Below are positions 1,807-28,716 of a stretch of 42,837 nucleotides of DNA, in pieces. Under the pieces are notes generated by a model. The model saw only the letters and a list, made by a program, of their open reading frames with translations. It was not told the origin of the DNA and made no database searches. The translations under genes and the position numbers were made by a program. This stretch comes from a virus. Location: the IMG/VR virus record IMGVR_UViG_3300044974_000121, positions 1-42,837 of that record; one strand, 5' to 3'. Position 1 is the stretch's first letter. Each line of letters begins with the position of its first letter.

Positions 1807-3644
1807 GGCAAGTTGACGAAGTCCTTTCGCTGTACCGGCAGCGTGTCCAGCACTATGGGCCACTGCACTCCAAGATGCGGATGATCCAGCAGATCTACAA
1901 CGGCTCGTTTCAGGTCCCGCTACCGGACATGGAGGAGAACGCGATGCCGTCCGCGCCGAACCTCCTCGCCGCCGGTATCGACCAGATGGCCGGTCGGATC
2001 ACCAGCGTCGTCCCGGCAGTCAACTTCGCGTCCAGCAAGCCAGGTGTCCGGTCGTATGACCGGCGTGCCCTGACCGCTGCCCGCACCGTGACGGGCTGGT
2101 GGCAGTTGGACCGGGTGCCGATGAAGATGAAGCAGCGTGGCAGGCACCTGATCGCCTACGGCATGTCGCCTGTGGTGCTCCGCTGGGACAGCGAGGAGAA
2201 CGTCCCGACCTGGCATGTCCGTCACCCGCTGGAGACCTACCCCAGCCCTGACATCGTCCCCGGCAAGGTCACCCCGACTGACTGCATCTTCGCGTACCGG
2301 CGCACCGCAGGCTGGCTGCGGGACCAGGGATACGGGATGCAACTCCTCGCCCTGACCGGAGAGACCCTGCCCAGGGACACCAGCATCCTGCTGCTGGAGT
2401 ACATCGACTCCGACGTGACCATGCTGATCGCTGCCGGGTACAAGACAGCGGACCCGTACAGCATCAACCTGGAATACGACACCGGGAACTCGTCCCTGAA
2501 GGGCGTGGTGCTGGAAGCGTTCGAGAACCCGACCGAGGAATGCCCAGTCGTGGTGCCGATGCGGGTGACGCTGGACACCGCTGCGGGCCAGTTCGACAAC
2601 ATGATCGGTATGTACTACCAGCAGGCCAAGTTGATGGCCCTTGAGGTCATCGCTGTGGAGAAGGGGATCTTCCCTGACACGTATCTGGTTAGTCGTCCGG
2701 GTGAGGTCGGTCGTTACCTTGACGGACCACACGATGGCCGGACAGGCATGGTCAATATCGTTGCGGGTGGAGACATCCGGGAGATCCAGTCGCAGCCTGG
2801 GTACCTCACTAACCCCACCATTGATCGTCTTGAGCGAAATCAGCGTGTTACGGCTGGTATCCCGGCAGAGTTCGGCGGGGAGTCATCCTCCAACATTCGC
2901 ACTGGGCGTAGAGGAGATGCTGTTCTTTCCGCTGTCATCGACTTCCCGGTAGCCGAAGCGCAGGAAACATTCGCTTACTCGCTGGAAGAAGAGAACGAGA
3001 TAGCGATTGAGTTGTCCAAGAAGTGGGACGGGAACAACTCCCGCACCATTTTCGTGGGCACCGGCAACGCTGCCCGCCCGGTTACCTACACCCCGAACGT
3101 CACGTTTGAGCAGACTGAGCACATCGTGTCCTACCCGGCATCGGGCACTGACGTGAACAGCCTCATCATCGGCATCGGGCAGCGCGTCGGCCTTGGGATC
3201 ATGTCGAAGCAGACAGCGGCGACGCTTGACCCGTACATCGACAACCCTGAGACTGAGCACGACGCCATCATTGCCGAGGGCTTGGAGCAGGCACTGATGT
3301 CCGGTTTGCAGCAGCAGGCCGCTCAGGGCGCTATCCCCCCGCTCACTATCGCGAAGATCATGGATCTGGTGAAGAACGACCGGATGGAACTCGCTGAGGC
3401 GCTGAACAAGGTCACCGAGGACGCAATGAAGGAGCAGCAGGCGCAGCAGGAAGCGCAGACCCCTGAGGCCGCTATGGCCCCTGGCGCTCTTGCGGCGCTT
3501 GCTGGCGGCGGTGCCGCGCAGCCGCAGTCCCCGATCCCAGGCGTAGGGCCGGGAATGGCGAGCCTTGGCGACCTGCTTGGGTCGCTGCGTAGACCGGCGA
3601 TGACGATCAGCCCGATGCGTGGCGTGTCACGAGGAGCGGTCTGA
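1803..3644 (+). CDS. Portal protein
   Basis: Predicted dodecameric portal ring at the capsid vertex, through which DNA is packaged and ejected. Size (613 aa) and position directly after TerL fit. The N-terminal half has the mixed alpha/beta pattern of large podovirus-type portals (segments such as VRHPLETYPSPDIVPG and VVPMRVTLDTAAGQFDNMIG). The C-terminal half is helical and ends in a Gln/Ala/Pro-rich tail. The ATG at 1803 is preferred because it overlaps the terminase stop as ATGA and has a GGAGAG ribosome site just upstream; an in-frame start 30 bases earlier lies inside terL. Function rests on context and overall character rather than one diagnostic motif. Confidence 0.82.
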   Translation: MRQVDEVLSLYRQRVQHYGPLHSKMRMIQQIYNGSFQVPLPDMEENAMPSAPNLLAAGIDQMAGRITSVVPAVNFASSKPGVRSYDRRALTAARTVTGWWQLDRVPMKMKQRGRHLIAYGMSPVVLRWDSEENVPTWHVRHPLETYPSPDIVPGKVTPTDCIFAYRRTAGWLRDQGYGMQLLALTGETLPRDTSILLLEYIDSDVTMLIAAGYKTADPYSINLEYDTGNSSLKGVVLEAFENPTEECPVVVPMRVTLDTAAGQFDNMIGMYYQQAKLMALEVIAVEKGIFPDTYLVSRPGEVGRYLDGPHDGRTGMVNIVAGGDIREIQSQPGYLTNPTIDRLERNQRVTAGIPAEFGGESSSNIRTGRRGDAVLSAVIDFPVAEAQETFAYSLEEENEIAIELSKKWDGNNSRTIFVGTGNAARPVTYTPNVTFEQTEHIVSYPASGTDVNSLIIGIGQRVGLGIMSKQTAATLDPYIDNPETEHDAIIAEGLEQALMSGLQQQAAQGAIPPLTIAKIMDLVKNDRMELAEALNKVTEDAMKEQQAQQEAQTPEAAMAPGALAALAGGGAAQPQSPIPGVGPGMASLGDLLGSLRRPAMTISPMRGVSRGAV

Positions 3645-4033: not shown

Positions 4034-4212
4034 TGTCCAACGTGCAGTTCATCCGTGACCTGGCTGCATTCACCGAGGCGCTAGGCGTGCAGAACGCGCC
4101 GACCGTCTTCTACCTCGCCCAGGTCCCCTGGCCCACCGAGCAGGAACGGGACAGGTTCATCACTCAGTTGACTGGCGTGAATCTCACGATTGAGCGGTCG
4201 TATGGCGGATAA
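4033..4212 (+). CDS. Small hypothetical protein (59 aa)
   Basis: Starts at the ATG that overlaps the previous stop (TAATG) and runs 59 codons, ending inside the start of the next gene. The sequence is amphipathic (VQFIRDLAAFTEALGV, PTEQERDRFITQLTG), with no recognised motif. The overlaps on both sides support it as a real, translationally coupled gene of the portal-region operon. A longer in-frame upstream extension would overlap the previous gene heavily and is not needed. Confidence 0.6.
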   Translation: MSNVQFIRDLAAFTEALGVQNAPTVFYLAQVPWPTEQERDRFITQLTGVNLTIERSYGG

Positions 4213-7200
4213 GAAGAAACTCACGCTGGAGGAGATCAACACCCGTAACCGGACAGGCCAAGGCTGGAAACTGTCCGACTTCGGCACCTACAGCGGCGAG
4301 CCGTTCCAACTGCCTGACCAGCCTCAGTATCGCGGGATCGAAGGAACCACGTTCAACCGGCAGGTCGGCCCGCCCCAGCCACCGATGGCGAGCCCCACGA
4401 CAACCAAGCCGGTGACTGAAGTCCTGTCGCCCGCTGAGGTCGAGCGTGTCCGCACGTTCGTACAGAACCCTCAGGAACTGGGCATCGTTTCCGGCGCTGT
4501 CAACTCAACCGCCACGTTCCTCAGCAACCTGTTCAACACGGACGACGAGAAGGAAACCATCGTCGAAAGCGCCTGGGACGGGCTGTTCAAGGGGCTGATG
4601 TGGCCAGTAGATCAGGTCAACCACCTCACGGCAGCAGCGATCTCAGCAATGCCAGGTGGCATGAGGACACTGACGTGGGACGAGGCCAACGACGTATCCA
4701 CCGGGCAGGCGCTGGTCACCGACTACGGCACCCGCGCAGGGATGGTGCGCCGTGGAGAGGCGAACGTCTTCGATGTCGCCGGATTCGCCAGCCCGATTGG
4801 CGCTATCGCTGGCGCTGCCGCGTTCAACAACCCTGACTCCCCAGTCCAGCAGGCAGGCTTTGATGTCACGACCGCAGAGGGGAAGAAGGCTTTCGACTCC
4901 GGGTACGAGAAGTTCTTCTCAGGGGTAACCGACTTCGGGATGGCGTTCGCGGATCCGCTTTTCCTCGCGGGCGGCGCAGCGAAACTGGCACGCATCAAGT
5001 TCGTTGACCGGCTCGTCGTCACTGACGCGCAGCGTGCCCGCCTCGTGGAGGAACTGAAGACCGGGTACACCGCTCCTCCTGGGCAGGCAGCCCCAATCGC
5101 CGAGTTCAACCGAGCCGTCACGGAGATCAACCCGGAAACCGGCCAGAAAGTCATGTCGTATGACGACATCTATAACCATAAGTCGATACGTAACTCCACC
5201 AATCGGGAAATCCTCGCGAAGGCGTACTACAACGCCCGCGACGTCACCGTCACCGACGTGCTTGACCCGTCGAAGTCGAAGTCGATCAGCGGATACGACC
5301 TGTCCTCGCTGATTACCCGATGGGCATACGGAGACAAGGACGCCGCCAGGCAACTCGCTGAGGTCCGCGCAGACATGGCCGACGCCCTCGCGCTGGGCGA
5401 GCGGAACCGGATCGCCGTGTCGTACGCACTCAACCCTGAAGCCCGAGAGAAGTCGATCAAGGTAGCGGAGAGCGCGGTAGAGAAAGCGGACCGCCAGATC
5501 CGTTCCCTGGAACGCCAAGGACTGGCCGGTACTGCCGACTGGGAGGCAGCGACAAGGGCCAAGGGGATCGCCCAGTCGACAGTCGATGACCTCGTTGACG
5601 GCAAGTTCGACATCCTGCAGCAGAACACCCCAGAGGCCAAGGCTCTCGCCAGCCGCGTCTTCAAGGACCTTGTCGCCAACAACGATGCCCTCAGGGCCGC
5701 TATCGGCTCCGACCGGGCAACCGCCTACGGCGGGATCATGGGTTCGCTTCAGGACTCCACCAAGGGCTTCGCTGCGAACAACCGGGTCGGAAGGCGCATT
5801 GAGCAGCGCCGCCTGAAGCAGGCCAAGGCGACGACGACCGCGCAGCAGACCAGGGGACGGGTCGTCGGAACCGGGCAGATGACTGCGCGAGGCGGGCGTG
5901 CGGAGAAGATGGAGCGCGTCGCCAACCCGTTCAACCGCTCATTCTGGACAGCGGACGAGTACGGCGACGGGTTCACGCGGAACGTGATCGTGTGGCGTCG
6001 GGCATCCGCTGAAGCCCCAGCAGGATTCATCATCACCAAGGGACTTGGCGCTCAGGAGGGATACCGGGAACTCCGCGCCGTTCTCAATGGCATCAAGTTG
6101 TTCAGCGGTGACGCCCGCCGTGTCGTCATTGACGACGGAAGCGTCGTCCTCGTCGGCGGCGCTGAGAAGAAGCGTCAGATGCTGGAGACATACGCGCAGG
6201 CATTGGCGCAGAACGTCGAAGGCGGGATGGACGCCGCGAAAGCGCTCCGTCAGGTCGAACGCGAGATCGAAAGCAACATGTTCGCCTGGTATGGGGTGAA
6301 CAAGGACACCGCCCAGAACCTGATGGAGCAGGCATTCAAGTCCCGGCAGCGCCTGATGGAAGGCATGACCGACCAGAATCGAGGCTTCTGGGTGGACGAT
6401 CAGGGCAAGTTCAACCTCGTCAAGGACGCCTGGCTGGACTCCCAACTCCAGAACGGCACCTTCATGCAGAACTACCGCGAACTAGAGCGGCTGCTGGGGA
6501 GGACCGAGAAGACCGGGTTGATGGGCCTGCTGTCGGACGGCACCGCAGTGACTGGACGGACGTTCAGCACGGTGGCCCGCTACTTCAATGAGATCTGGCG
6601 TCCGCTTGTCCTGATGCGCCTCGGGTACACGATGAGGAACGTCATCGAAGGCCAGGTCCGTGCCGCTGCTTTCACCGCCAGCCTTGACCCGTTCAGCGCC
6701 GCGATGGTCAACGCCGGGTACAGCGCAAGAGGACTGTTCGGCAAACTGGCAGGGCATCAGAACATCGACCGGGTAGCAGCAGAAGCGAGGATCAACGCCG
6801 CCAAGTCCGGTGGCAGGAAACTTCCCAGGAAGTTCGAACCGTGGCTGAGGACTCAGATCCAAGGACGTATGCGCCAGAACAACGAGTTCCAGGCGTACAT
6901 CGCGTCAACGGTCCCAGACATCGCCAAGCACAGCCCAGAGATACGCACATGGGGACTGGACTGGTATCAGAAGACGATCAGCAAACTCAGTTCAGACTCC
7001 GCTGATGCTAGACGCCTTGGATCCTTGGACGAGGCCGACGCCATTGATGAAGTCATCACCACGATGATGAAGCAGATGGATGAAGTCAACTCCATCAAGA
7101 CGTTCGAAAAGTACACACCTGACGCTGTCGAGACATTCAACGATTTGCGATTCAACGCGATGCTTCTGGACGACGGGTACAGGAAACTGGATCTGTTGAA

Positions 7201-9784
7201 CGACGACGCTACAGCGCTAAGCATGTTCTACCGTCAGGGCAAGGCGCGTGCCCGCGCATACTCAGGCACGGTCCAGACCCCCGACTCCAAGACCATGTAC
7301 AGCGCGTTCAACCCGGAGAACCCATTCACCCCGGTAGCGCTGTCGCTGCTGTCGGCTGACTCAACAACGAAGTCGATGGTCGGCGGCAGGACCGCGTCAC
7401 TTGAATCGCTGTTCCGCGCCAAGTCGCAGACCAACTACGCCATCGTCAAGCCGTCCGACCCGAAGTACTGGGAGTCGCTGTCCAACGCGATTGCCCAGGT
7501 CCGGTTCAGCAGCATCGGCAGCCGCATCATGCGCGGCCAGACGGACGACGAGATCGTCAACTTCCTGCTGACTGACCGTGATGGGATTGAGACCCTCCGC
7601 TTCCTGAACGGCGCGGTGACCAAGGAGAAGGTCAAGAAGACCGGCGAGGTGACCCGCGTGCGGGCTGCGCGGGAGGTCCAGGTCGGCGGGCAAGCCGTGA
7701 TGATCGGCAAGGGCGTTGAGCCTGGGCCGGATGTCGCACGGTTCTTCGTGGAGCAGGCCAGGAGCCGGTACGAGCAGTTGACCCCGAATCTCGGCTTCCG
7801 GTCCTACGTGGAGTCGCAGCCGTCAGGCGTTGAGTACGCCGCTAAGCAACTGGAGTCCGCGTTCAGGGACGCTGGCGGCGACACGAAAGCCCTGCACGCT
7901 GTCGTGGGCACCCATCTGGATGAGTTCGGGTTGAAGAACCCGATGGATGTGTGGCGTACGTTCACCGGGTACACGATGAAGTGGCTTGGCACGATCCCTG
8001 AGGACACGTTCGTCCGGTCTCCGTTCTACGGTGCCCGCTATCAGGCATCGACCAAGCGGCTTGTGGATATCGCGATGAAGCAGTCCGGTGGGACTGTCAC
8101 GATGCGGGAGATCGACACGATCACCAGGCAGGCGCATGCGCGAGCCCTCAAGGACACCAAGGACTGGCTGTACACCATCGACCGCCCGACACTGCTCGGC
8201 AGCATTGGCGAGACAACGGTGCCGTTCATCTCCGCTGCCCAGAACTCCATGACAACGCTGGGCAGGCTGGTCTACAACGACCCGAACACTGCGCTTGTCC
8301 TTGCTTCGCTGTGGCGGGCACCGACCTCTGCTGGCATGGAAGATGAGAGCGGCAACATCGTCATCCCTATCCCGCATGAGTGGATCCCTGACGGGGTTGA
8401 GAAGTTCTTCGGCCTTGACGCCATGCAGAACTGGAAGATCAAGAAGAACCAGTTGAACGTCATCGTCCCTGAGTCAGGCTTCGGGTTCGTCCCGCGCCCT
8501 GGCCCGCTTGTCGCTGTCCCGGTATCAGAGTTGATGAAGCGCGGCTGGCTCGGCCAGCAGGTCGAGTCGCCTGAGATCCTGCGAACGGTCCTTGGGGGCA
8601 AGGAGCAGGCCGATCAGGTGTGGAACGTGTACAAGGCGTACATGTTCGGCGAGGGGCAGGGCGCTGCGTCCGACCCCAACTCGCTTTCCATGTTCCTGCC
8701 ACCGGTCGGGCAGAGGATGATGCGCCTGTTCCAGCAGGAAGGCAACCAGCAGTTCGGCTACAACTACAACCTCATCATGCGTTCGCAGTGGGCGTTGTAC
8801 TCCGCTGGGATGCGGGATCAGCCGACGAAGCAGGAGATCCTGAACCAGACTGTCGGCTTTGAGTTGCTGCGGTTGATCGCGAACCTGACGGCCATCACTC
8901 CTCCTCAGTACGAGTCGGTGATCGACCCGATGGTGCAGACAGTGCGGTACTACGAGCGGACGTACCCAGACGATGCGCCACGGATCATCAACGAGAAGTT
9001 CGGCCCTGTGCTACAGATGCTGGGCGATTTCTCCAACTCGCAGAGCAACGCCGGGATGCTCGCGAACGCTGACACCGTGGAGCGGTCAAGGAAGTACAGC
9101 GACATCATCGCCAAGACCGCTCCTGTCCTTGACGAGCGCGGCGACATGTCGGTGCTGACGATGCTGGCGATGAACAACGCGAACCAGTTGTATGACGACT
9201 CTGCCTATGCGTGGCAGTTCGCGAACCGCGTCCCTGGCACGAATAAGTCATATCGGGAGTGGCAGTCAGCCCAGCAGTCCTGGATCCAGTCCGATGTGAA
9301 TGCTGGCTGGGCTACGTATCTGCGGGGCGAGGACGGGTTCCAGGCGAGGCTGCGGCAGATGGGCCTGACATCGTTCGACAAGGCTCCTGAGTTACAGGCT
9401 GAGCGGGATGCATGGCTATCGGATATGGCAAACAACCCGTTCTTTGAGAACTGGTACAGGGATTACAAGGATTACGGTTCCAGCAGAACCATGTCAGCGG
9501 TCTACATGATGAATGAACTGGTCAATGACCAGAGGTTCATGGATGACAATAAGGACAACGTGATCTGGCAGTTTGCACCCCTGTACCTGTATCACCGGGA
9601 CAGAGTCCTCAACGCGCTGCAGGAATCCGGCAAGGGCATCGACAATCCTGACAACATCCAGATCCGAGAGTACTGGGACAGCGTCCGCGCAGACCTGAAC
9701 TCCTACCCGCAATGGTCCGCTTTCTCCAACAGGTTCCTGAACGGCGACGACGCGCCAGAGGCTCCTGGCGTTACCTTCATGTGA
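4202..9784 (+). CDS. Giant virion protein (about 1860 aa), probable internal/ejection protein
   Basis: By far the largest gene in the window. The product is almost entirely helical, with many charged stretches, and has Gly/Ala-rich hydrophobic segments near residues 195-210 (FASPIGAIAGAAAF) and 240-260 that could touch membranes. Its place between portal and capsid, followed by three more helical proteins, resembles the internal virion (ejection) protein blocks of podoviruses. A tape measure is less likely because no tail-tube or tail-assembly genes accompany it. No lysozyme or MuF motif was recognised by eye. ATG 4202 (MADKKK) is chosen; an in-frame TTG lies 12 bases upstream. It overlaps the 59-aa gene by 11 bases. 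Confidence 0.72.
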   Translation: MADKKKLTLEEINTRNRTGQGWKLSDFGTYSGEPFQLPDQPQYRGIEGTTFNRQVGPPQPPMASPTTTKPVTEVLSPAEVERVRTFVQNPQELGIVSGAVNSTATFLSNLFNTDDEKETIVESAWDGLFKGLMWPVDQVNHLTAAAISAMPGGMRTLTWDEANDVSTGQALVTDYGTRAGMVRRGEANVFDVAGFASPIGAIAGAAAFNNPDSPVQQAGFDVTTAEGKKAFDSGYEKFFSGVTDFGMAFADPLFLAGGAAKLARIKFVDRLVVTDAQRARLVEELKTGYTAPPGQAAPIAEFNRAVTEINPETGQKVMSYDDIYNHKSIRNSTNREILAKAYYNARDVTVTDVLDPSKSKSISGYDLSSLITRWAYGDKDAARQLAEVRADMADALALGERNRIAVSYALNPEAREKSIKVAESAVEKADRQIRSLERQGLAGTADWEAATRAKGIAQSTVDDLVDGKFDILQQNTPEAKALASRVFKDLVANNDALRAAIGSDRATAYGGIMGSLQDSTKGFAANNRVGRRIEQRRLKQAKATTTAQQTRGRVVGTGQMTARGGRAEKMERVANPFNRSFWTADEYGDGFTRNVIVWRRASAEAPAGFIITKGLGAQEGYRELRAVLNGIKLFSGDARRVVIDDGSVVLVGGAEKKRQMLETYAQALAQNVEGGMDAAKALRQVEREIESNMFAWYGVNKDTAQNLMEQAFKSRQRLMEGMTDQNRGFWVDDQGKFNLVKDAWLDSQLQNGTFMQNYRELERLLGRTEKTGLMGLLSDGTAVTGRTFSTVARYFNEIWRPLVLMRLGYTMRNVIEGQVRAAAFTASLDPFSAAMVNAGYSARGLFGKLAGHQNIDRVAAEARINAAKSGGRKLPRKFEPWLRTQIQGRMRQNNEFQAYIASTVPDIAKHSPEIRTWGLDWYQKTISKLSSDSADARRLGSLDEADAIDEVITTMMKQMDEVNSIKTFEKYTPDAVETFNDLRFNAMLLDDGYRKLDLLNDDATALSMFYRQGKARARAYSGTVQTPDSKTMYSAFNPENPFTPVALSLLSADSTTKSMVGGRTASLESLFRAKSQTNYAIVKPSDPKYWESLSNAIAQVRFSSIGSRIMRGQTDDEIVNFLLTDRDGIETLRFLNGAVTKEKVKKTGEVTRVRAAREVQVGGQAVMIGKGVEPGPDVARFFVEQARSRYEQLTPNLGFRSYVESQPSGVEYAAKQLESAFRDAGGDTKALHAVVGTHLDEFGLKNPMDVWRTFTGYTMKWLGTIPEDTFVRSPFYGARYQASTKRLVDIAMKQSGGTVTMREIDTITRQAHARALKDTKDWLYTIDRPTLLGSIGETTVPFISAAQNSMTTLGRLVYNDPNTALVLASLWRAPTSAGMEDESGNIVIPIPHEWIPDGVEKFFGLDAMQNWKIKKNQLNVIVPESGFGFVPRPGPLVAVPVSELMKRGWLGQQVESPEILRTVLGGKEQADQVWNVYKAYMFGEGQGAASDPNSLSMFLPPVGQRMMRLFQQEGNQQFGYNYNLIMRSQWALYSAGMRDQPTKQEILNQTVGFELLRLIANLTAITPPQYESVIDPMVQTVRYYERTYPDDAPRIINEKFGPVLQMLGDFSNSQSNAGMLANADTVERSRKYSDIIAKTAPVLDERGDMSVLTMLAMNNANQLYDDSAYAWQFANRVPGTNKSYREWQSAQQSWIQSDVNAGWATYLRGEDGFQARLRQMGLTSFDKAPELQAERDAWLSDMANNPFFENWYRDYKDYGSSRTMSAVYMMNELVNDQRFMDDNKDNVIWQFAPLYLYHRDRVLNALQESGKGIDNPDNIQIREYWDSVRADLNSYPQWSAFSNRFLNGDDAPEAPGVTFM

Positions 9785-13313: not shown

Positions 13314-14351
13314 ATGCCAGCAGGTACCGGCACCCCTGGTGCCAATCAGAACGGTCCAGCGACGAGCCCGATGTTCTCCCCTGGGGAGATCGTCACCGCT
13401 GCTGGCCCGCTGTCCATCAACGCACCGGCCCCGGTCGTTGACATCACTCTCGGCGGTCAGTTCGTCACGAAGGCGTACGACCTTGCCATCTACCCGTCCC
13501 TCCGCCCTGAACTCATCTTCGATCAGTTCGCGACGGTTAAGGCCACCAACACCACTCACCGTGGTGGCAGTGTCCGGTTCTCGTTCATTAATGACATCGC
13601 TGAGCAGACCACTCCGCTTCTGGAGAACATCGACGTTGACTCGGTGACTCTGTCCAGCAAGGCGCTCACCGTCACGATGCGTGAGTACGGCACCGCTGTC
13701 ACGAACACCGCCCTGATCCGTGGCACCAGCATGGTTGCGCTGGACCCGATCATCGCGGAGCGTGTCGGCTACAACGCTGGTCTGTCGATTGACACCCTCG
13801 CTCGGGTTGCTCTTGACCAGACCACGGTCACCTATGACGATGCTTCGACCGCTTCGGTCGGGTCTGTCGGCAACCTGTCGGGTCCTCTGACTGGCGCTCA
13901 CCTGCGCACTGGTGTTGCGACGCTTCGTGCGAACAATGTTCGTCCGCTGCGTGGCGGCAACTATGTCGCGGTCATCAGCCCGTATCAGGCTCAGCATCTG
14001 TTCTCCGAGACCACTGATACCGGCTTCCGTTGGATGGTCGGCTACGCGGGTGGCGAGGGCACTGCTGGGAACAGCATCTTCATGGGCGAGGTCGGCACCT
14101 ACGAAGGTGTCCGCATCATCGTCAACAACCACCTGACCGACCTGGGTCGTGGGTACCTGATGGGCGCTGAGGCGCTCGCTAAGGCGTACTCCACCGCTCC
14201 TGGCTTCGGGGCGAACCCGAAGACCGTCGTCGCTCCGGTGGTTGACAAGTTGCGCCGGTTTGCCAGCATCGGCTGGTACCACCTGGTCGGGTACAGCATT
14301 TTCCGTGCTGATGCCCTGCTCCAGATCCGTACCCAGTCGACGCTGGTCTAG
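13314..14351 (+). CDS. Major capsid protein, N4-gp56 type
   Basis: A 345-aa protein with the HK97-like features of the N4-gp56 capsid family. These include an early segment LYPS-like (DLAIYPSLRPELIFDQFAT), the RGGSVRFSFIND strand, the LTVTMREYGTAVTNTALIR motif, PYQAQHLF and GYLMGAEALAKAY, and a C-terminal GWYHLVGYSIFRADAL. It is preceded by AAAGGTAAGAAGAA and followed by a large hairpin. Codon use in this gene is noticeably regular (GTC, CTG, ACC), as expected for a highly expressed protein. Family assignment is from recalled family pattern; no search was run. Confidence 0.88.
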   Translation: MPAGTGTPGANQNGPATSPMFSPGEIVTAAGPLSINAPAPVVDITLGGQFVTKAYDLAIYPSLRPELIFDQFATVKATNTTHRGGSVRFSFINDIAEQTTPLLENIDVDSVTLSSKALTVTMREYGTAVTNTALIRGTSMVALDPIIAERVGYNAGLSIDTLARVALDQTTVTYDDASTASVGSVGNLSGPLTGAHLRTGVATLRANNVRPLRGGNYVAVISPYQAQHLFSETTDTGFRWMVGYAGGEGTAGNSIFMGEVGTYEGVRIIVNNHLTDLGRGYLMGAEALAKAYSTAPGFGANPKTVVAPVVDKLRRFASIGWYHLVGYSIFRADALLQIRTQSTLV

Positions 14352-16859: not shown

Positions 16860-17543
16860 ATGCCGAGCCTGAATCTGCCTACCCCGAATAAGACTCCTGG
16901 GGATGGTGCGCCAGCGGATGACATCAACCTCGTTATTGAGGCGATTAATACGCTGAACTCGGCTGTCACGAATATCGCTGCTGGTCCTACCGGGCCTACG
17001 GGGGATGCTGGACCTACCGGCCCGGCTGGGCCTACGGGTGCCGCGTCCACGGTGACTGGCCCGACTGGGGCTAAGGGTGATGATGGGCCTACGGGTCCGA
17101 CTGGTCCTCAGGGTCCGATTGGGTTGACTGGCCCGACTGGTCCTCCTGGTCAGGCGGCGAATCTTGGTGCTACTGGGCCGACTGGGCCTACTGGTGCTCA
17201 GGGGCCGACTGGGCCTCAGGGTGACGCTGGTCCTGCTGGTGAGGCTGGTGCGGCTGGGGTGACGGGGCCGACCGGCCCTCAGGGCTCTATTGGCCCTACC
17301 GGGCCTACTGGGGCGAGTGGCGCGGCGTCCACGGTCACGGGTCCTACCGGGCCGACTGGTGCGACTGGTGCCGCTGGCGCGGCAGGAGCGACCGGACCTA
17401 CCGGGCCTACTGGACCGACCGGGCCGACTGGCGCTACCGGTGCTGCCGGGGCTACCGGACCGACCGGCCCGACTGGGCCTACGGGTACGTCTGGGACAAA
17501 CGCACCTGAGTTCCTAGGGTCGCTGCTGCTAGGGGGCATGTGA
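16860..17543 (+). CDS. Collagen-like (Gly-Pro-Thr repeat) fibre protein
   Basis: A 227-aa protein. Residues 1-40 form a non-repetitive attachment segment ([19 protein letters not shown]). Residues about 41-215 are collagen-like Gly-X-Y triplets dominated by GPT (about 23 of them), interrupted twice by the same STVT insert. A short hydrophobic C-terminal tail ([11 protein letters not shown]) follows. Such repeats form rod-like trimers in phage fibres. In spore BclA-type proteins GPT threonines are sugar-modified, which is notable because a glycosyltransferase gene overlaps this stop by one base. The ribosome site is AGGAGCAGTGG. Confidence 0.85.
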
Positions 17544-18592
17544 TGCGGGTAGCGGTGTACGCGATCAACAAGAACCACGCCGAGAACCTTCAGCGGTGGG
17601 CTGACTGCGCCCGCGACGCCGACTACCTCATCATGGCTGACACGGGCTCCACTGACGACAGCATCGCCGCTGGTCTCGCTGCCGGTATCCAGATGTCGTC
17701 CATCGTGATCGACCCGTGGCGGTATGACCATGCCCGTAATGCTGCGCTGGCGCTGGTGCCGGATGACGTGGACTACTGCATCGCACTGGACACGGATGAG
17801 TTCCTTCAGCCTGGCTGGCGGCGTCATCTTCAGGAAGCGTTCGACGCTGGGATCACGCGCCCGAGGTACAGGTTCGTGTGGTCGTGGGATGAGCGGGGCA
17901 AGCCTGGGTTGGAGTTCGCTGCGGAGAAGATCCACCCCCGGCATGGATATCGGTGGCGGCACGCGGCGCATGAAACGTTGTTCACTGAGGTGCAGGAGCG
18001 GCAGGGCTGGTGCGGGCTGGAGATCCACCATCATCAGGTCCCGAAGCCGTACCGGGCGCATGAGTTGCCGCTGCTTGAGATAGCGGTGACTGAGGCACCG
18101 GACGATGACCGGATGGCGCACTATCACGCGAGGGCGTTGATGTTCGCTGGCCGTGGCATGGATGCGCTGCGCCAGTTCCAGCGGCATCTGGATCTTCCGT
18201 CAGCCCGCTGGGTGGATGAGCGTGCCCAGTCGATGCGGTACATGTTCAGGATCACGAAGGATGTCCGGTATCTGCATGACGCTTACCGGGAGGCTCCTCA
18301 CCGCAGGGAGGCGGCGGTTGACGCGGCCCGCTACCACCATGGCTTGGGGGAGTGGGAGGAGTGCTTGCTGTGGGCGAAGCGGGCGCTGGACGTGAAGGAC
18401 CGGGATCTGCTGTACCTGACTGAGCCGGATGCGTGGGGTTCGCTGCCGCATGACCTTGCTGCGGTAGCGGCATACAACCTTGGGTTCTTCCGTGAGGCTG
18501 ACTGGCATGGCATGGAGGCGCTGAAACTGGATCCGTATGACCAGCGGCTGGTGCGTAATGTCGGGTTCTACCGTGAGAAGGTGGCGGCATGA
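17543..18592 (+). CDS. Glycosyltransferase, GT2-like (GT-A fold)
   Basis: A 350-aa enzyme that probably transfers a sugar from a nucleotide donor. The N-terminal GT-A domain shows [19 protein letters not shown], the donor-binding ADTGSTDDS loop (about residues 31-39) and the metal-binding DTDEF (DxD-like, about residues 81-85). A C-terminal helical part (about 200-350) looks TPR-like, with repeated Ala-rich helices. It starts at the ATG overlapping the fibre stop (TGATG) and overlaps the next tail gene by 4 bases. This coupling suggests that it modifies a virion protein such as the GPT-repeat fibre. Confidence 0.85.
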   Translation: MRVAVYAINKNHAENLQRWADCARDADYLIMADTGSTDDSIAAGLAAGIQMSSIVIDPWRYDHARNAALALVPDDVDYCIALDTDEFLQPGWRRHLQEAFDAGITRPRYRFVWSWDERGKPGLEFAAEKIHPRHGYRWRHAAHETLFTEVQERQGWCGLEIHHHQVPKPYRAHELPLLEIAVTEAPDDDRMAHYHARALMFAGRGMDALRQFQRHLDLPSARWVDERAQSMRYMFRITKDVRYLHDAYREAPHRREAAVDAARYHHGLGEWEECLLWAKRALDVKDRDLLYLTEPDAWGSLPHDLAAVAAYNLGFFREADWHGMEALKLDPYDQRLVRNVGFYREKVAA

Positions 18593-21904: not shown

Positions 21905-22249
21905 ATGCCTACTGTGTATAAGCAACTCGGTGCGGCTGCGGGCAGCGGCACGATCACTACTGCTGCTCAGTTGTATGCGGCGTCAGCGACGGCGTCTACG
22001 TCCACGATTATTTCCAGCATCGTGATCTGTAATACGTCGTCGTCTGCTGCGACGTACAGCATCGGTGTGAATACTGCGACGGCTACGTTTGCTGCTGGCC
22101 GGTATGTGGTGTTTCAGGCGACGATTGCCGGTAATGACACGGTTGCGCTGACGCTTGGGTTGGTGCTTGATCCGACGAATCGGTTCTTGAATGTGTCGTC
22201 TTCTACTGCGTCGGTGAACTTTTCGGCGTATGGGGTGGAGAACTCGTAA
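21905..22249 (+). CDS. Small beta-rich tail protein (114 aa)
   Basis: A Ser/Thr/Ala-rich beta-sandwich-like protein (STIISSIVICNTSSSAATYSI, GRYVVFQATIAGNDTVALTL). Short proteins of this kind often follow fibre-attachment genes in phages and decorate the fibre or head. Its TAA stop overlaps the next ATG (TAATG). Function not established. Confidence 0.58.
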   Translation: MPTVYKQLGAAAGSGTITTAAQLYAASATASTSTIISSIVICNTSSSAATYSIGVNTATATFAAGRYVVFQATIAGNDTVALTLGLVLDPTNRFLNVSSSTASVNFSAYGVENS

Positions 22250-22983
22250 TGACTATGAGCAACCTCAACACCAACAAGTTGGCGCCTGAAAGGGTAGAAG
22301 TAACCCCGAACGCCGACTTCTCCAACACCCCCACGGGGACGTACATTGACGGCGCGACGGGGTACGGCTACAAGTACCTAACGATGACTGTATCCGGCAC
22401 GCTGACGATCACGACCGTGGGATATGCCGACATTCTCCTTGTCGGCGGTGGAGGCGGTGGAGGCGGTGCAACGAACTTCAGCGGACGCCCGGGTGCTGGT
22501 GGTGGTGTTATTGCACGGGGCTACTGGCTGTCCGCAACCTCATGGGCCGTTGTCATAGGGGCCGGGGGAGCAGGGGGGGCAATCAATACTGGAAGCGGCG
22601 GAGCGGTCGGCGGCAACTCCAGCCTCGCTGATCTAGTCGCCTACGGTGGCGGAGGCGGTGGCAGCGGCATGAATGGCAGCAGCAACGGTGGAAGCGGCGG
22701 CTCAGGTGGATCAGGTGCGACCACTAATGGCACCGCCGTTCTCAGCGGCCTACAGGGATACAGCGGCAACTCTTTCGGCTCTGGCGGGGCTGGTGGAGCA
22801 GCCACGGCCGGTAATGGTGGAGGCCCACCGATGACCAGTTCGATCACCGGAACTGCCCTGAACTACGCCAAGGCTGGTGGCAACGCGACTACCACTACGG
22901 GATACGGGGATGGGGGCCTGTCTCCTTACGCCGGTACCGCTGGCGGCAACGGCGTGTTCATCATCCGAGTGAGGACTTCCTAA
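22249..22983 (+). CDS. Glycine-rich adhesin/tail fibre tip 1
   Basis: A 244-aa protein. A beta N-terminus leads into YADILLVGGGGGGGG, then a long Gly/Ser/Asn/Ala-rich stretch (about residues 65-230), and closes with GVFIIRVRTS. The DxLLVGGGG opening and the VxVR closing strand are shared with the two Gly-rich units of the next protein. Gly-rich stretches of this kind can pack as polyglycine-II helices in phage adhesins. It probably binds the host surface. Confidence 0.7.
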   Translation: MTMSNLNTNKLAPERVEVTPNADFSNTPTGTYIDGATGYGYKYLTMTVSGTLTITTVGYADILLVGGGGGGGGATNFSGRPGAGGGVIARGYWLSATSWAVVIGAGGAGGAINTGSGGAVGGNSSLADLVAYGGGGGGSGMNGSSNGGSGGSGGSGATTNGTAVLSGLQGYSGNSFGSGGAGGAATAGNGGGPPMTSSITGTALNYAKAGGNATTTTGYGDGGLSPYAGTAGGNGVFIIRVRTS

Positions 22984-24689
22984 TGGCTATCCAGAAACTG
23001 TCTACGACGACTGGTGCCGGTGTCACTGCCCCTTCAGCGGGCAGGTTTGCTCAGATCAGTAGTGGTGGTACTCGGACTACGTATACGTCTGGTGGGGTGA
23101 CGTATGAGGTGAGGACGTTCAACTCGTCTGGGACGCTGGAGGTGGGGTCTAGCGGTGTCGTGGATGTGCTGCTGGTCGGTGGCGGCGGCGGTGGTGGCGC
23201 GGCTCAAGGCGGTGGCGGTGGCGGTGGTCAGGTCATTTCCGCTAGCAGTTTTTTCCTGAATGCCGGTTCTTTCACTGTCACTGTCGGCGCTGCTGGTGCA
23301 GGCGCTACGTATTCAACGACTGTTGTCGGTGGCGGCTCTAATGGCGGTGACTCGCGGCTCGGCCCGCTTGAGGCTATTGGCGGCGGTGGTGGTGGAAGTA
23401 ATAATAATCAAACTAATAATGGATACTTTGGTCACCGTGGAGCAAATGGTGGTGGTGGCTCGGGTGGGGGGGCTGCTTCTGCGAGCAATGGAGGGGTGAC
23501 GCTTCTTACTGGTGGTTTCGCTGGCGGTAACGGTTTCGTTGGCACTAACGGTGCCGGTGGTGGTGGTGGTGGAGATAGCGCCGTGGGGGCGAACTCGACT
23601 AGCGCTACCGCAGCGGGCGCTGGTGGCGCTGGTACTTCAAGCAGCCTTCAGACTGGCTCTGCCGTTACCTATGCTGGTGGTGGTGGCGGGGGTAGCAGTA
23701 CGACTGGTGCTGGTACTGGTGGTTCTGGTGGTGGCGGCGCTGGTGGTAACAATGCTGCTGGTACTGCTGGATCGTCTAATACTGGCGGTGGTGGTGGCGG
23801 TACTGGTAGCGCTGCTGCTGGCGCTAACGGTGGTAGTGGTGTGGTGATTGTTCGCACGATCATCTCGGGTACAGCGGCTGGTGTGGCAGCGAGTGGTGGT
23901 ACTGAGTCGACGTATACGGGTGATGGTTCTAATGGTGTGAATGGTCAGGTGTACAAGGTTCACACGTTCACTACGTCGGGTTCGTTGTCGGTGGCTGCGC
24001 CTGGGTTCGTGGACGTGCTGGTCGTCGGCGGTGGCGGCGGCGGCTCTAAGGCTTACGCTGGTGCAGGTGGAGCAGGCGGTCATCTGTATATCACCAATGC
24101 TTATCTACCCGCAGATACGTTGACTGTGACTATTGGCGGGGGTGGCAGCGGCCAGACGACAGCCAACCAGGTCGGATACTCAGGTGAGGCCAGCCGACTA
24201 GGCAGTTACTACGCCCCTGGTGGTGGCGGTGGCGGGTCACAAGGCATCAATGGCCTTTCAGGTGGCAGCGGCGGTGGTGGCGGCGGGAACTCCACTGCTA
24301 CGGGCGGGACAGGTGCCACCGGTATAGGCAATAACGGCGGAACCGGCTCGGCTACAAGCGCCAAGGGCGGCGGCGGTGGTGGCGGATCTTCTGCGGCGGG
24401 TTCAAACGGCAGTGCTGGCGGCGGGGGGAACGGCGGCAATGGGACCGCTAACTCGATAACTGGCACGAGCGTTACACGCGCTGGCGGCGGTGGTGGCGGA
24501 TCACTGGGTGGCACGGCTGGCACTGGTGGCACCGGAGGCGGCGGCAATGGCACCAACAATGACACTGCCGCAGCGAATGCTTCACCCGCTAACTGTGGCA
24601 GCGGTGGCGGCGGTGGAGGCGTGACAACGGGCGGCGGTAATGGCGGTAATGGCGCAAGCGGCGTTGTCGTTGTCAGATACCCAATCTAG
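22983..24689 (+). CDS. Glycine-rich adhesin/tail fibre tip 2, two tandem units
   Basis: A 568-aa protein with two successive Gly-rich domains. The first opens at about residue 60 (VVDVLLVGGGGGGG) and closes near 295 (GVVIVRTII). The second opens near 340 (FVDVLVVGGGGGG) and closes at the end (GVVVVRYPI). Between them lies a repeat of the N-terminal beta module (YTGDGSNGVNGQVYKVHTFTTSGSL versus VTYEVRTFNSSGTL). With the preceding gene this makes three related adhesin units. Base composition follows the Gly repeats (GGTGGCGGT). Probable receptor-binding tip, with repeat number likely to vary by recombination. Confidence 0.72.
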   Translation: MAIQKLSTTTGAGVTAPSAGRFAQISSGGTRTTYTSGGVTYEVRTFNSSGTLEVGSSGVVDVLLVGGGGGGGAAQGGGGGGGQVISASSFFLNAGSFTVTVGAAGAGATYSTTVVGGGSNGGDSRLGPLEAIGGGGGGSNNNQTNNGYFGHRGANGGGGSGGGAASASNGGVTLLTGGFAGGNGFVGTNGAGGGGGGDSAVGANSTSATAAGAGGAGTSSSLQTGSAVTYAGGGGGGSSTTGAGTGGSGGGGAGGNNAAGTAGSSNTGGGGGGTGSAAAGANGGSGVVIVRTIISGTAAGVAASGGTESTYTGDGSNGVNGQVYKVHTFTTSGSLSVAAPGFVDVLVVGGGGGGSKAYAGAGGAGGHLYITNAYLPADTLTVTIGGGGSGQTTANQVGYSGEASRLGSYYAPGGGGGGSQGINGLSGGSGGGGGGNSTATGGTGATGIGNNGGTGSATSAKGGGGGGGSSAAGSNGSAGGGGNGGNGTANSITGTSVTRAGGGGGGSLGGTAGTGGTGGGGNGTNNDTAAANASPANCGSGGGGGGVTTGGGNGGNGASGVVVVRYPI

Positions 24690-25166: not shown

Positions 25167-25351
25167 TGGACTGGTTCACCCCGCATCGTCGTCGCTGGAT
25201 CTATGGGATCAGCATGGCTCTGGGGCCGCTGCTCGTGTTCTATGGGGTGGTGGAGGAGTCGGCGTGGCCGCTGTGGGTTGCGGTGATCCAGCAGGTGCTG
25301 GTCCCGGCGATGGCGTTGAACTTCGTTCCAGCGGGTGAGGAGGAGCAGTGA
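25166..25351 (+). CDS. Holin-like membrane protein 2 (61 aa)
   Basis: GTG start at 25166 overlapping the upstream stop; an in-frame TTG at 25142 is less likely. A basic N-terminus (FTPHRRRWIYG) is followed by two hydrophobic segments (ISMALGPLLVFYGVV and WPLWVAVIQQVLVPAMALNFV) and an acidic end, giving a two-helix holin-like topology. It is coupled to the endolysin by a GTGA overlap. Together these two membrane proteins and the peptidase form the lysis cassette. Confidence 0.62.
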   Translation: MDWFTPHRRRWIYGISMALGPLLVFYGVVEESAWPLWVAVIQQVLVPAMALNFVPAGEEEQ

Positions 25352-25842
25352 GGAAGGTCAGCCTGAATGGGTGGACTGCGCCGCCTAGGACGTTGAAGGT
25401 GTTCAAGATCCCTGGCTGCAACAGGAAGTTGACGCTGGACAAGGACGCGGGTCGGCTGCTGACAGCCCTGGCTGCGGATTATCACGCGACGGTGCGCCCG
25501 CTGGATGTGGGGAAGGTGGATGAGGGCGGGTATGCGTTCCGTGAGGCGAACGGCGCGTCCGGTCACCTGTCCAACCATGCATCCGGTACAGCGATTGACT
25601 TGAACTGGAGCGAGGAGGGCGCTCAGGGTTCCAAGTGGGGTCAGGTGTTCTTCCACAAGGTGAAGCATCGGAAGGCGATCAACGACATCAAGGCCCGCTA
25701 TGGCCGCTGGGTGAACTGGGGCGGGGACTGGCGGGCGAAGGACTACATGCATTGGGAGATCAAGCCTGGGGTGACTCGGGTGATGGTGGTCAATGCGTGC
25801 AAGCAGTTGGGTATTGACGCGAATGGTGTCCGCAAGCCTTAG
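25348..25842 (+). CDS. Endolysin, M15-type peptidoglycan peptidase
   Basis: A 164-aa cell-wall peptidase, expected to cut stem peptides of peptidoglycan at lysis. Zinc-site motifs of the M15/VanY group are visible: SNHASGTAIDLN (SxHxxGxAxD, about residues 75-86) and DYMHWEI (HxE-type, about 132-138). There is no signal peptide, so release would need the adjacent holin-like proteins. GTG start overlapping the previous gene; the 3' end overlaps the following gene by 20 bases. Confidence 0.85.
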   Translation: MRKVSLNGWTAPPRTLKVFKIPGCNRKLTLDKDAGRLLTALAADYHATVRPLDVGKVDEGGYAFREANGASGHLSNHASGTAIDLNWSEEGAQGSKWGQVFFHKVKHRKAINDIKARYGRWVNWGGDWRAKDYMHWEIKPGVTRVMVVNACKQLGIDANGVRKP

Positions 25843-26434
25843 CCATTTCTACCATGTGTATGCCGCTGGTCATTGGGTTGAGCCGGTAGCGGAGCACTGC
25901 ACGGCGCTGCTTGAGCATGGGCTGTATGCGGCGCTGGATGAGTTCTATGTGGGGCTGGTCGGGTCGCAGGATCAGATCAGTGAAGCGGTCGCGTACATCC
26001 AGGGTCGTGGGCTGGATCCGGTGGTGGTGTCCAGGTCGTGGTCTGGGTGGGAGCAGGAGACTCTGCGGCATGTGCAGCCGTGGGCTGGGCAGTCTGACGG
26101 GCTGTGCCTGTATGCGCATACGAAAAGCGCCCATGACCCGTCCGCTATCAACGTGCCGTGGCGTCAGTCGATGTGCTTCTACTCGGTGGTGCAGTGGCGG
26201 CAGGCGGTGGAGGGGCTGGGTGTCGGCTGGGACACGGCGGGGTCGCATTGGCTGGGTGACATGTATGGGGGGAACTACTGGTGGTCGACTGCGGCTTATC
26301 TGCGGTCGCTGCCTCCGTTGGAGTACGTGTCCCGGTGGCATGCGGAGGGCTGGATCTCTAAGGGTGAGCCGCATCGGGCGAAGGACTTGAACCCTGGGCA
26401 TCCTGGGGAGCGGCGGTTCGTCACTCAATGGTGA
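25823..26434 (+). CDS. Glycosyltransferase-like protein A (tandem paralogue)
   Basis: A 203-aa protein starting SHFYHVYAAGHW. It has the core YAHTKSAH...VPWRQSMCFYSVVQW and the later GGNYWWSTAAYLRSL. These H-T-K and G-N-(Y/F)-W-W signatures are shared with the next gene and recall a family of small sugar-transfer-type enzymes from polysaccharide clusters. The two genes look like a tandem duplication. ATG 25823 is chosen, with GTG 25826 as alternative; both lie inside the endolysin 3' end. Exact substrate unknown. Confidence 0.62.
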   Translation: MVSASLSHFYHVYAAGHWVEPVAEHCTALLEHGLYAALDEFYVGLVGSQDQISEAVAYIQGRGLDPVVVSRSWSGWEQETLRHVQPWAGQSDGLCLYAHTKSAHDPSAINVPWRQSMCFYSVVQWRQAVEGLGVGWDTAGSHWLGDMYGGNYWWSTAAYLRSLPPLEYVSRWHAEGWISKGEPHRAKDLNPGHPGERRFVTQW

Positions 26435-27054
26435 CGCACCTGTATCACGTTTACGCTGGCGGTGACTGGCAGCGGCCCGTCCGTGAGCATTTCACGGCTT
26501 TGAACGGGTCTGGCCTGATGGGGGTGCTGGACTTCATCGGGGTGGGGATCGTCGGCCCTGAGGCTTCTATCAGCGAGGTGCGGGGAGTGCTGCCTTCCGG
26601 GGTGGAGGTGGTGACGATGGCTCAGACTGGGTTTGAGCAGGCGACGCTGGACTGCATCCCGGGACTGCCTGACGGGCCTCTGCTGTACGCCCACACGAAG
26701 GGCTCGTTCCAGGTCAGTGCGAGGCAGGATGCGTGGCGCAGGACGATGACATGGTTCAACGTGATGCAGTGGCGGTCGATGCTGGATGCGTTGCGGACCC
26801 ATGACACGGCTGGGATCTGGTGGATACCTGAGCCGGTGCATCCCCGGCCCCACTATCAGGGGAACTTCTGGTGGGCGAACAGCGACTACGTGAAGGGGTT
26901 GCGGTTTCCGGTGCCGGGGTTCTCCAGGTGGGAGGCTGAGTTGTGGCTGGGGACTGGCAGGCCGCTGCCGTGGGATGCTTACCCTGGCAGCGAAGGGGAC
27001 TGCGAACCGGTGGAGGAGTGGGTTGATGACTTCGATAGGGAACCTGAGGCATAA
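26428..27054 (+). CDS. Glycosyltransferase-like protein B (tandem paralogue)
   Basis: A 208-aa protein clearly related to the preceding one: THLYHVYAGGDW, LYAHTKGSF, AWRRTMTWFNVMQW and GNFWWANSDYVKGL match it in the same order. It starts at ATG 26428, overlapping the upstream stop by 7 bases. The shared features suggest a GT-A-like sugar transferase. Duplication followed by divergence is the simplest explanation. The acidic C-terminal tail overlaps the next gene. Confidence 0.62.
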   Translation: MVTHLYHVYAGGDWQRPVREHFTALNGSGLMGVLDFIGVGIVGPEASISEVRGVLPSGVEVVTMAQTGFEQATLDCIPGLPDGPLLYAHTKGSFQVSARQDAWRRTMTWFNVMQWRSMLDALRTHDTAGIWWIPEPVHPRPHYQGNFWWANSDYVKGLRFPVPGFSRWEAELWLGTGRPLPWDAYPGSEGDCEPVEEWVDDFDREPEA

Positions 27055-27670
27055 GTGGTATGGGGAGACTGCGTGGGTGGTGGGGTCTGGGGCGACGCTC
27101 GGGCATGTGAGCCGGGGGTTCTTCAACGGGAAACGCACCATCGCGGTGAACCATGTGTCCCGGCTGCACGGCTTCACCCCTGATGTGCTGTTCTCCCACT
27201 ATCACCGGGATGTGCAGGAGTCGCTTGAGCCGCAGTCGCTGGGGGTGACGTTGCGGCTGGACACGAACACGTTGCAGCCGTGGCTGGATGCGCCGTCGAA
27301 TGTGGTGTTCGTGGATGTTCCGTATGAGTCGCCGCCCGGCCCGGCGTGGGACCCGTACCTGTTTCCCCCTGAGCCGAACTCCCTGGTGTACGGGTCCAGC
27401 AGTATTCATGGCGCGATCCATCTCGCTGCGCATATGGGGGCGACGTTCATCGTGCTGGTCGGGGTGGACTGCGGCTGGCTGGATGGGCAGCATCGGTTCC
27501 CCGGCTACCCGGATCCTGCGAGCCCGCCGCCTGACGTGATGCCGATATGGGAGCGGCATCTGCGACTGTTGAAGCAGTGGCTGCGGGAACGGTATGACGT
27601 GGACGTGTACTCGCTGAACCCGTTCCTGAACCTGAACCTTGAGGGGCATGAGTTCAGGGGGGCTGGCTGA
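27026..27670 (+). CDS. DUF115/MptE-like Rossmann protein of the sugar cassette
   Basis: A 214-aa protein. A Rossmann-like nucleotide site AWVVGSGATLGHV (about residues 14-26) is followed by TIAVNHVSRLHGFTPDVLF, and a second signature SSSIHGAIHLAAHMGATFIV leads to GVDCGW. This pattern is typical of MptE-like/DUF115 proteins, some of which act in sugar transfer to surface proteins. ATG 27026 follows GGAGGAGTGGGTTG and lies within the upstream gene (29-base overlap). Its role in the phage is inferred from the neighbouring transferases. Confidence 0.65.
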   Translation: MTSIGNLRHKWYGETAWVVGSGATLGHVSRGFFNGKRTIAVNHVSRLHGFTPDVLFSHYHRDVQESLEPQSLGVTLRLDTNTLQPWLDAPSNVVFVDVPYESPPGPAWDPYLFPPEPNSLVYGSSSIHGAIHLAAHMGATFIVLVGVDCGWLDGQHRFPGYPDPASPPPDVMPIWERHLRLLKQWLRERYDVDVYSLNPFLNLNLEGHEFRGAG

Positions 27671-28716
27671 TGCCTGTCGCGTTCCTGACGAACGATTTCA
27701 CGAACCTTGGCGGCGGCATCGAAGTGCCTGGGGGGTGCGCGTATTACCGCTGCTCGCTGCCGATGTTCGCGAGTGGTGAGCCAGCGATGCTGGGCCGTCC
27801 CGCTTTCCATCCTGATTACGGGTTCGGGATCAAGGAGAGCGATCAGCGGGCGGTGTTCAAGTTCGACACGGTGGTGCTGAAACTCATCATGTTCCGGTGG
27901 ACACCGAGGCAGATGCTGATCGCTCAGCAGTTGGGTCAGCGGGTCATCGTTGATGTGGATGATGCGTATGACTTCCTGCCTGAGGTGAACAAGGCGTGGG
28001 AGCAGACGCACCCTGACCGGAACAAGGTAATGAACCGGGACCATTACCGGGAAGTGATCGCCGCCGCTGACACGTTAACGGTGTCCACCCAGTTCCTACT
28101 GGATCATCATCGGGATCATCGGGATGTGCGGCTGGTCAGGAACGGTCCGCATCCTGGGATGTTCCCTGTGAAACGCCAGTCGGCCAGGCCGGTGATCGGC
28201 TGGGTGGGTGCTATCCCGTTCCGGGGCGGGGACTTGGAGATCATGCGGGACTGGCTGCCTGCATTCCTTGATGAGCATGACTTGCTGTTCCATCACTCAG
28301 GGGATGACCCGACAGCGCCGTCTTTCGCTGAGGTGGTGGGCATCCCAGTGGAGCGGATGTCGTGCTCACCGCTGGCACCGATCAACCAGTATCCGCAGTT
28401 GTTTGAGCATTTCGACATCGGCCTGGTCCCGTTGAATGACATCCCGTTCAACCATGCGAAGTCCACGATCAAGGGACTGGAGTATGCGTCAGCGGGGATC
28501 CCGTTCGTGGCGTCCGGTTTGCCTGAGTATCAGCGGCTCGCTGATGACGGGGTTGGGAGGATCGCTAATACCCCTGAGGAGTGGGTGCGGCATCTGACTG
28601 AGTTGCTGGATCTCGGGGTAAGAAAGAAGGAAGCCGCCCAGCAGCGACGGATCGTTGCTGAGCGGCATTCCATCCAGGCCCGTGAGGCCGAGTGGCAGGC
28701 GGTGTTCAGGACGTGA
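27670..28716 (+). CDS. Glycosyltransferase, GT-B fold (GT4-like)
   Basis: A 348-aa enzyme. The N-terminal domain includes CAYYRCSLPM and the stretch VIVDVDDAYDFL. The C-terminal donor-binding domain has PVIGWVGAIPFRGGD (about residues 177-191), LFEHFDIGLVPLND, and the acidic donor signature region KSTIKGLEYASAGIPFVAS (about 263-281; K..K..EY-A-G-P, as in GT4). It ends the rightward arm and overlaps the first leftward gene by 11 bases in convergent orientation. Target sugar and acceptor unknown. Confidence 0.82.
   Translation: MPVAFLTNDFTNLGGGIEVPGGCAYYRCSLPMFASGEPAMLGRPAFHPDYGFGIKESDQRAVFKFDTVVLKLIMFRWTPRQMLIAQQLGQRVIVDVDDAYDFLPEVNKAWEQTHPDRNKVMNRDHYREVIAAADTLTVSTQFLLDHHRDHRDVRLVRNGPHPGMFPVKRQSARPVIGWVGAIPFRGGDLEIMRDWLPAFLDEHDLLFHHSGDDPTAPSFAEVVGIPVERMSCSPLAPINQYPQLFEHFDIGLVPLNDIPFNHAKSTIKGLEYASAGIPFVASGLPEYQRLADDGVGRIANTPEEWVRHLTELLDLGVRKKEAAQQRRIVAERHSIQAREAEWQAVFRT

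Follow-up and report, generated by a model that had tools for sequence, protein, structure and literature searches.

The window analyzed here, the whole 42,837-nt virus record IMGVR_UViG_3300044974_000121 (positions 1 to 42,837), encodes behind its lysis genes a cassette of four putative glycosyltransferases, A to D. An enzymatic role in sugar transfer is largely supported, while the target is one that we infer: we think it somewhat probable that A to D form a late-expressed, soluble set whose product is a short glycan attached to virion proteins of the phage itself. Fusions between A- and D-type domains, glycosyltransferase folds and profile matches, purifying selection, and the position of C relatives beside capsid genes all support this reading. 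What goes beyond routine annotation is the unlisted family to which A and B belong, the repeated fusions of that family, and the capsid-side setting of its partners. The host of this uncultured phage is probably a member of the Actinobacteria.

A Four-Gene Cassette Closes the Late Operon

The first-pass annotation had described four overlapping, same-strand genes behind the lysis genes at 25823-28716, and the open reading frames (ORFs), their overlaps, position, and strand were all confirmed. The features that bear on the analysis are as follows.

10-1806, terminase
1773-3644, portal (annotated in the window)
13314..14351, + strand, major head protein (PHROG 1357 at 7.6e-40); candidate glycan acceptor
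16860..17543, + strand, collagen-like tail fiber protein (PHROG tail-fiber matches), adjoining the GT2-like gene; second candidate acceptor
17540..18592, + strand, GT2-like gene (PHROG 13126 at 8e-88; DTD motif), outside the cassette proper
25348..25842, + strand, endolysin (Peptidase_M15_4), overlapping gene A; cassette context
25823..26434, + strand, gene A, ATG start, 203 aa, predicted GT-A-type glycosyltransferase
26428..27054, + strand, gene B, 208 aa, paralog of A
27026..27670, + strand, gene C, 214 aa, predicted GT42/GT29-like (sialyltransferase-type), weak MptE-like match
27670..28716, + strand, gene D, 348 aa, GT4-type (GT-B) glycosyltransferase by profile

The head and fiber genes are followed by more virion genes, glycine-rich proteins, the lysis genes, and then the cassette, which adjoins the lysis genes instead of the head protein gene ~11 kb away. 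The ORFs overlap by 20 nt (endolysin/A), 7 nt (A/B), 29 nt (B/C), and 1 nt (C/D), and the next clear genes 3′ of D lie on the opposite strand in convergent orientation. Since overlapping same-strand ORFs follow the endolysin and opposite-strand genes lie past D, the cassette is the final stretch of the late operon. GC3 of A to D was 0.75-0.81, compared to 0.75-0.80 in the capsid, portal, and endolysin genes.

The window contains five glycosyltransferase genes, which occupy ~9% of its length. Although the count stood, its description as an unusually large share did not. On one contig, L002, six or more glycosyltransferase-like genes lie within 12.9 kb (by inspection), and five are not exceptional among the relatives of this phage.

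Conservation in a Sister Phage

An Actinomycetales MAG includes a 43,036-base contig that largely shares the gene order of the window but in rotated form, so that the two genomes are probably near-complete and circularly permuted. This sister phage retains A-B-C-D with identities of 87, 79, 60, and 72%, respectively. The dN/dS values against the sister were 0.14 for A, 0.29 for B, 0.33 for C, and 0.24 for D, compared to 0.08 for both the head protein (93% identical) and the endolysin, indicating that all four cassette genes are under purifying selection. Phage-typical GC3, together with conservation at low dN/dS, rules out that A to D are chance ORFs. The sister has one additional gene, recognized by inspection as class I methyltransferase-like (L007 7839-8501), which separates C from D.

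We also observed differences outside the cassette. In place of the glycine-rich virion-type proteins at 22249-24689 (244 and 568 aa, the former matching Gly_rich_2), the sister has an unrelated 677-aa repeat protein. A 1864-aa ORF at 4190-9784, between the portal and head protein genes, matches PHROG 10618, a group of unknown function, and the sister protein is only 35% identical over part of the length.

A and B Belong to an Unlisted Family with a Predicted GT-A Fold

A and B, noted at first pass as two tandem glycosyltransferase-like genes, are paralogs with 39% identity (E 7e-39). B groups with the B of the sister phage at 100/100 support, and as A and B each pair with their own sister counterpart, the duplication is older than the split of the two phages. 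Tandem A-type paralogs also occur in bacteria (L012, L013, and L016, all Prevotella/Segatella genomes).

An AlphaFold model of A, built with a 52-member alignment, had a pLDDT of 94.3. Compared to the PDB, it gave 26 matches at E ≤ 0.001, all of which were glycosyltransferases or nucleotidyltransferases with a TM of about 0.5. The model clearly predicts a GT-A / nucleotide-diphospho-sugar transferase fold, with no clear close kinship to any solved enzyme, and by paralogy B would adopt the same fold. For A, C, and D, searching solved structures by sequence gave no meaningful match.

A metal-binding DXD motif after strand 4 is usual, though not universal, in GT-A enzymes. We did not find DXD in A or B; that place, after the fourth strand, is taken by H99-T100-K101. 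Both H99 and K101 are invariant in 52/52 A-type members, and the full set of invariant residues in the family is H11, E77, Y97, H99, K101, W113, G140, G150, W153, R171, and E175. With HTK in place of DXD, the mechanism of A and B would be metal-independent.

No credible Pfam, NCBIfam, or PHROG match was obtained for any of the 52 A-type members, although relatives are encoded in at least 569 IMG/VR stretches. For B and C, single-protein scans of IMG/VR gave no confirmed relatives, whereas alignment-based scans did; six A-type proteins aligned together were too diverse a set for use as a scan query.

A-type domains are repeatedly joined to other enzymes. On four contigs (L075, L081, L084, and L085, the last incomplete), a single protein combines A- and D-type domains. 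Each of the ten large viral A-containing proteins that were scanned carries recognized glycosyltransferase domains (GT2 in nine, GT1/GT9 in one), and a methyltransferase domain is also present in three of the ten. Viral proteins of 600-1000 residues that join A-type, GT2, and methyltransferase domains are found on L199, L213, L195, L202, L239, and others. On L034 and L035, from phages related to this one, the genes after A are a methyltransferase-like gene and a convergent D.

Gene C Resembles Sialyltransferases and Its Relatives Lie beside Capsid Genes

C had been described as DUF115/MptE-like. This label fits less well, as the match to Pfam MptE-like (PF01973) reached 21.5 bits, below the cut-off of 34.6; all eight C relatives tested likewise matched it weakly. 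The underlying assignment to sugar transfer was kept, with C now placed as GT42-like. PHROG 4603 (alpha-2,3-sialyltransferase) matches C at 1e-7 and 18/20 C-family members. The AlphaFold model of C (pLDDT 91.2) has CstII as its best PDB match (E 4.7e-4, TM 0.52), followed by SteA and further sialyltransferases. The nearest solved folds are GT42 and GT29 sialyltransferases (CstII, ST6GALNAC2), at about 12% identity and only moderate similarity, the PHROG profile points the same way, and we predict that C is GT42/GT29 (sialyltransferase)-like. Structure prediction had been proposed as a check at first pass; run on A and C, it returned glycosyltransferase-type rather than unrelated folds for both. 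With B covered by its paralogy to A, and D and the GT2 protein by sequence profile, the enzymatic reading withstands the refuting condition set at first pass. A pterin enzyme was rejected as a candidate for C, since the fold is nearest to sialyltransferases and the MptE-like match is sub-threshold.

Among contigs encoding C relatives, a major capsid gene lies ≤2.8 kb upstream in 40/42, usually with a GT4 gene between. When one contig was kept per near-identical group, the capsid gene was upstream of the C relative in seven of eight. As a counterpoint, such neighborhoods could equally well reflect co-expression or a hot spot for insertion rather than a substrate. We also observed a recurrent block of capsid, GT4, GT2 (or A-type), C, and head-tail connector genes on L103 (4717-9251) and similar C-family contigs, many from freshwater-type phages, suggesting a common virion-glycosylation locus.

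The MAG holding the sister phage contains one NeuB-family gene. The gene is a weak hint that a nonulosonic acid donor could be available, and the status of this MAG as host is itself uncertain. For a GT42 sialyltransferase, the donor would be CMP-sialic acid.

Gene D and the GT2-like Gene

The identification of D as GT4-like was borne out. D matches Pfam Glyco_trans_1_2 at 25.9 bits, above the cut-off of 25, and Glyco_trans_1_4 at 24.4 bits, below the cut-off of 27. It also matches PHROG 7162 (glycosyltransferase) at 1.6e-28, and alignments covering 84-93% of D give 25-32% identity to annotated glycosyltransferases from Arthrobacter phage and from Streptomyces phage Zuko. Profile matches thus identify D as a GT4 enzyme and a member of PHROG 7162, whose Arthrobacter and Streptomyces phage proteins are likewise putative glycosyltransferases.

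The separate GT2-like gene of the first-pass annotation is likewise real, as its PHROG 13126 match and DXD motif indicate; its product also has a TPR-like tail. The gene overlaps the collagen-like fiber gene by 4 nt, is inserted between it and the next virion gene, and has no counterpart there in the sister phage, where the fiber gene differs. This arrangement would fit a role in which glycans placed specifically on tail-fiber or adhesin proteins adjust how the host is recognized and the GT2 protein (17540) acts on the adjoining fiber. However, the argument is one of adjacency, and A to D are conserved in the sister despite its partly replaced fiber and downstream tail genes, so that we regard this explanation as quite improbable.

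Comparison with Known Virion Glycosylation Systems

In mycobacteriophages Che8, Corndog, and Myrna, phage glycosyltransferases modify capsid and tail proteins, according to accounts of this work (Freeman et al., 2023, via PMC11256854 and PMC12363180). Those enzymes are likewise encoded by phages of Actinobacteria. For our cassette, acceptor and glycan are predictions, and no Mycobacterium phage was among the tblastn matches of A, B, C, and D in phage records.

A second likeness is to chloroviruses. Compared to the viral structures in BFVD, the model of A matched a 638-residue protein (E 2.5e-13, TM 0.85; the matched domain was not reported), and further near matches were giant-virus proteins, some named glycosyltransferase. 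A064R of chlorovirus PBCV-1 is also a 638-residue protein, and its domain 2, assigned to a new family, is an inverting rhamnosyltransferase that works without cations (PMC9614988); in the A064R / A061L machinery, glycosyltransferase domains and a methyltransferase act jointly on the capsid glycan. Cation independence of domain 2 fits the absence of DXD from A and B, while A064R differs in being a single fused protein of a eukaryotic virus rather than separate phage genes. The link between A/B and A064R domain 2, drawn from fold match and chain length, is suggestive only. We regard the mycobacteriophage and chlorovirus systems as the closest analogs and as precedents for function, not as proof of membership.

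A broader proposal, which we put forward tentatively and consider rather doubtful as a whole, is that A and B represent an undescribed metal-independent GT-A family common to phages, bacteria, and probably giant viruses. The family would serve as an exchangeable module for virus-particle glycans, either standing alone or joined to GT4, GT2, or methyltransferase domains. The cassette would then correspond, in a prokaryotic virus, to the machinery that makes the chlorovirus capsid glycan, and C would add a nonulosonic acid cap.

Virion glycosylation by phage enzymes has so far been described in a few mycobacteriophages. If our reading is true, it would be widespread in environmental phages, partly via an enzyme family absent from standard libraries, and hundreds of viral glycosyltransferases would now be filed as "hypothetical proteins." For probing how phages sugar-coat their particles, the compact cassette and the fusions of A- and D-type domains provide small, soluble enzymes that lend themselves to testing.

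Neighbors of A Relatives and the Likely Target

Bacterial A-type genes lie within cell-surface polysaccharide loci, where the neighboring genes encode glycosyltransferases, epimerases, flippases, and LicD. This is a counterpoint to a virion target, as a wall target fits the family too: A to D could alter the host cell-wall glycopolymer or capsule late in infection, and the receptor change would free particles from debris or exclude a second phage. GT4 enzymes, moreover, commonly act on lipid-linked glycans. However, hydropathy revealed no clear membrane segment in A to D or the GT2 protein, all of which look soluble, so the cassette would lack a flippase or GtrA/GtrB-type partner. In phage seroconversion of the GtrABC type, a membrane flippase and a polyprenyl-phosphate glycosyltransferase are encoded beside the specific transferase; the cassette does not follow this pattern, as it has no clear membrane segment and is flanked by the endolysin and convergent genes. 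Its position among the latest genes would also leave little time for cell protection, and a search for an integrase found none, so that no lysogenic conversion is apparent. We therefore consider modification of the host wall unlikely, and the superinfection block by this route that had been raised at first pass is without direct support here.

The neighbors of viral A-type genes include glycosyltransferases, epimerases, methyltransferases, and major head proteins. Some phage glycosyltransferases modify DNA bases, and A to D might in principle protect phage DNA from restriction in this way. We searched for a thymidylate-synthase-type hydroxymethylase and found none, and both the late-operon position and the surface-glycan genes adjoining the relatives argue against this role, which we judge highly improbable. 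Since the cassette is placed in the late operon and its relatives lie beside capsid genes, we favor a virion target (capsid or tail), which is most likely when compared to the host wall.

With the virion as target, the glycan would be assembled in the host cytoplasm ahead of lysis. No nucleotide-sugar synthesis gene was noticed in the partly annotated window, and host nucleotide sugars are thus assumed to be the donors. D and A/B would add sugars one after another, with catalysis by A/B proceeding without a divalent metal, and a nonulosonic (sialic-type) acid or a related sugar may be added by C as the terminal cap. As acceptor we propose the major head protein and/or tail or fiber proteins, and the benefit would be a changed particle surface, affecting adsorption, stability, and recognition.

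In the bacterial A-type loci, eight neighbor proteins match DUF6080, suggesting a tie between two uncharacterized families.
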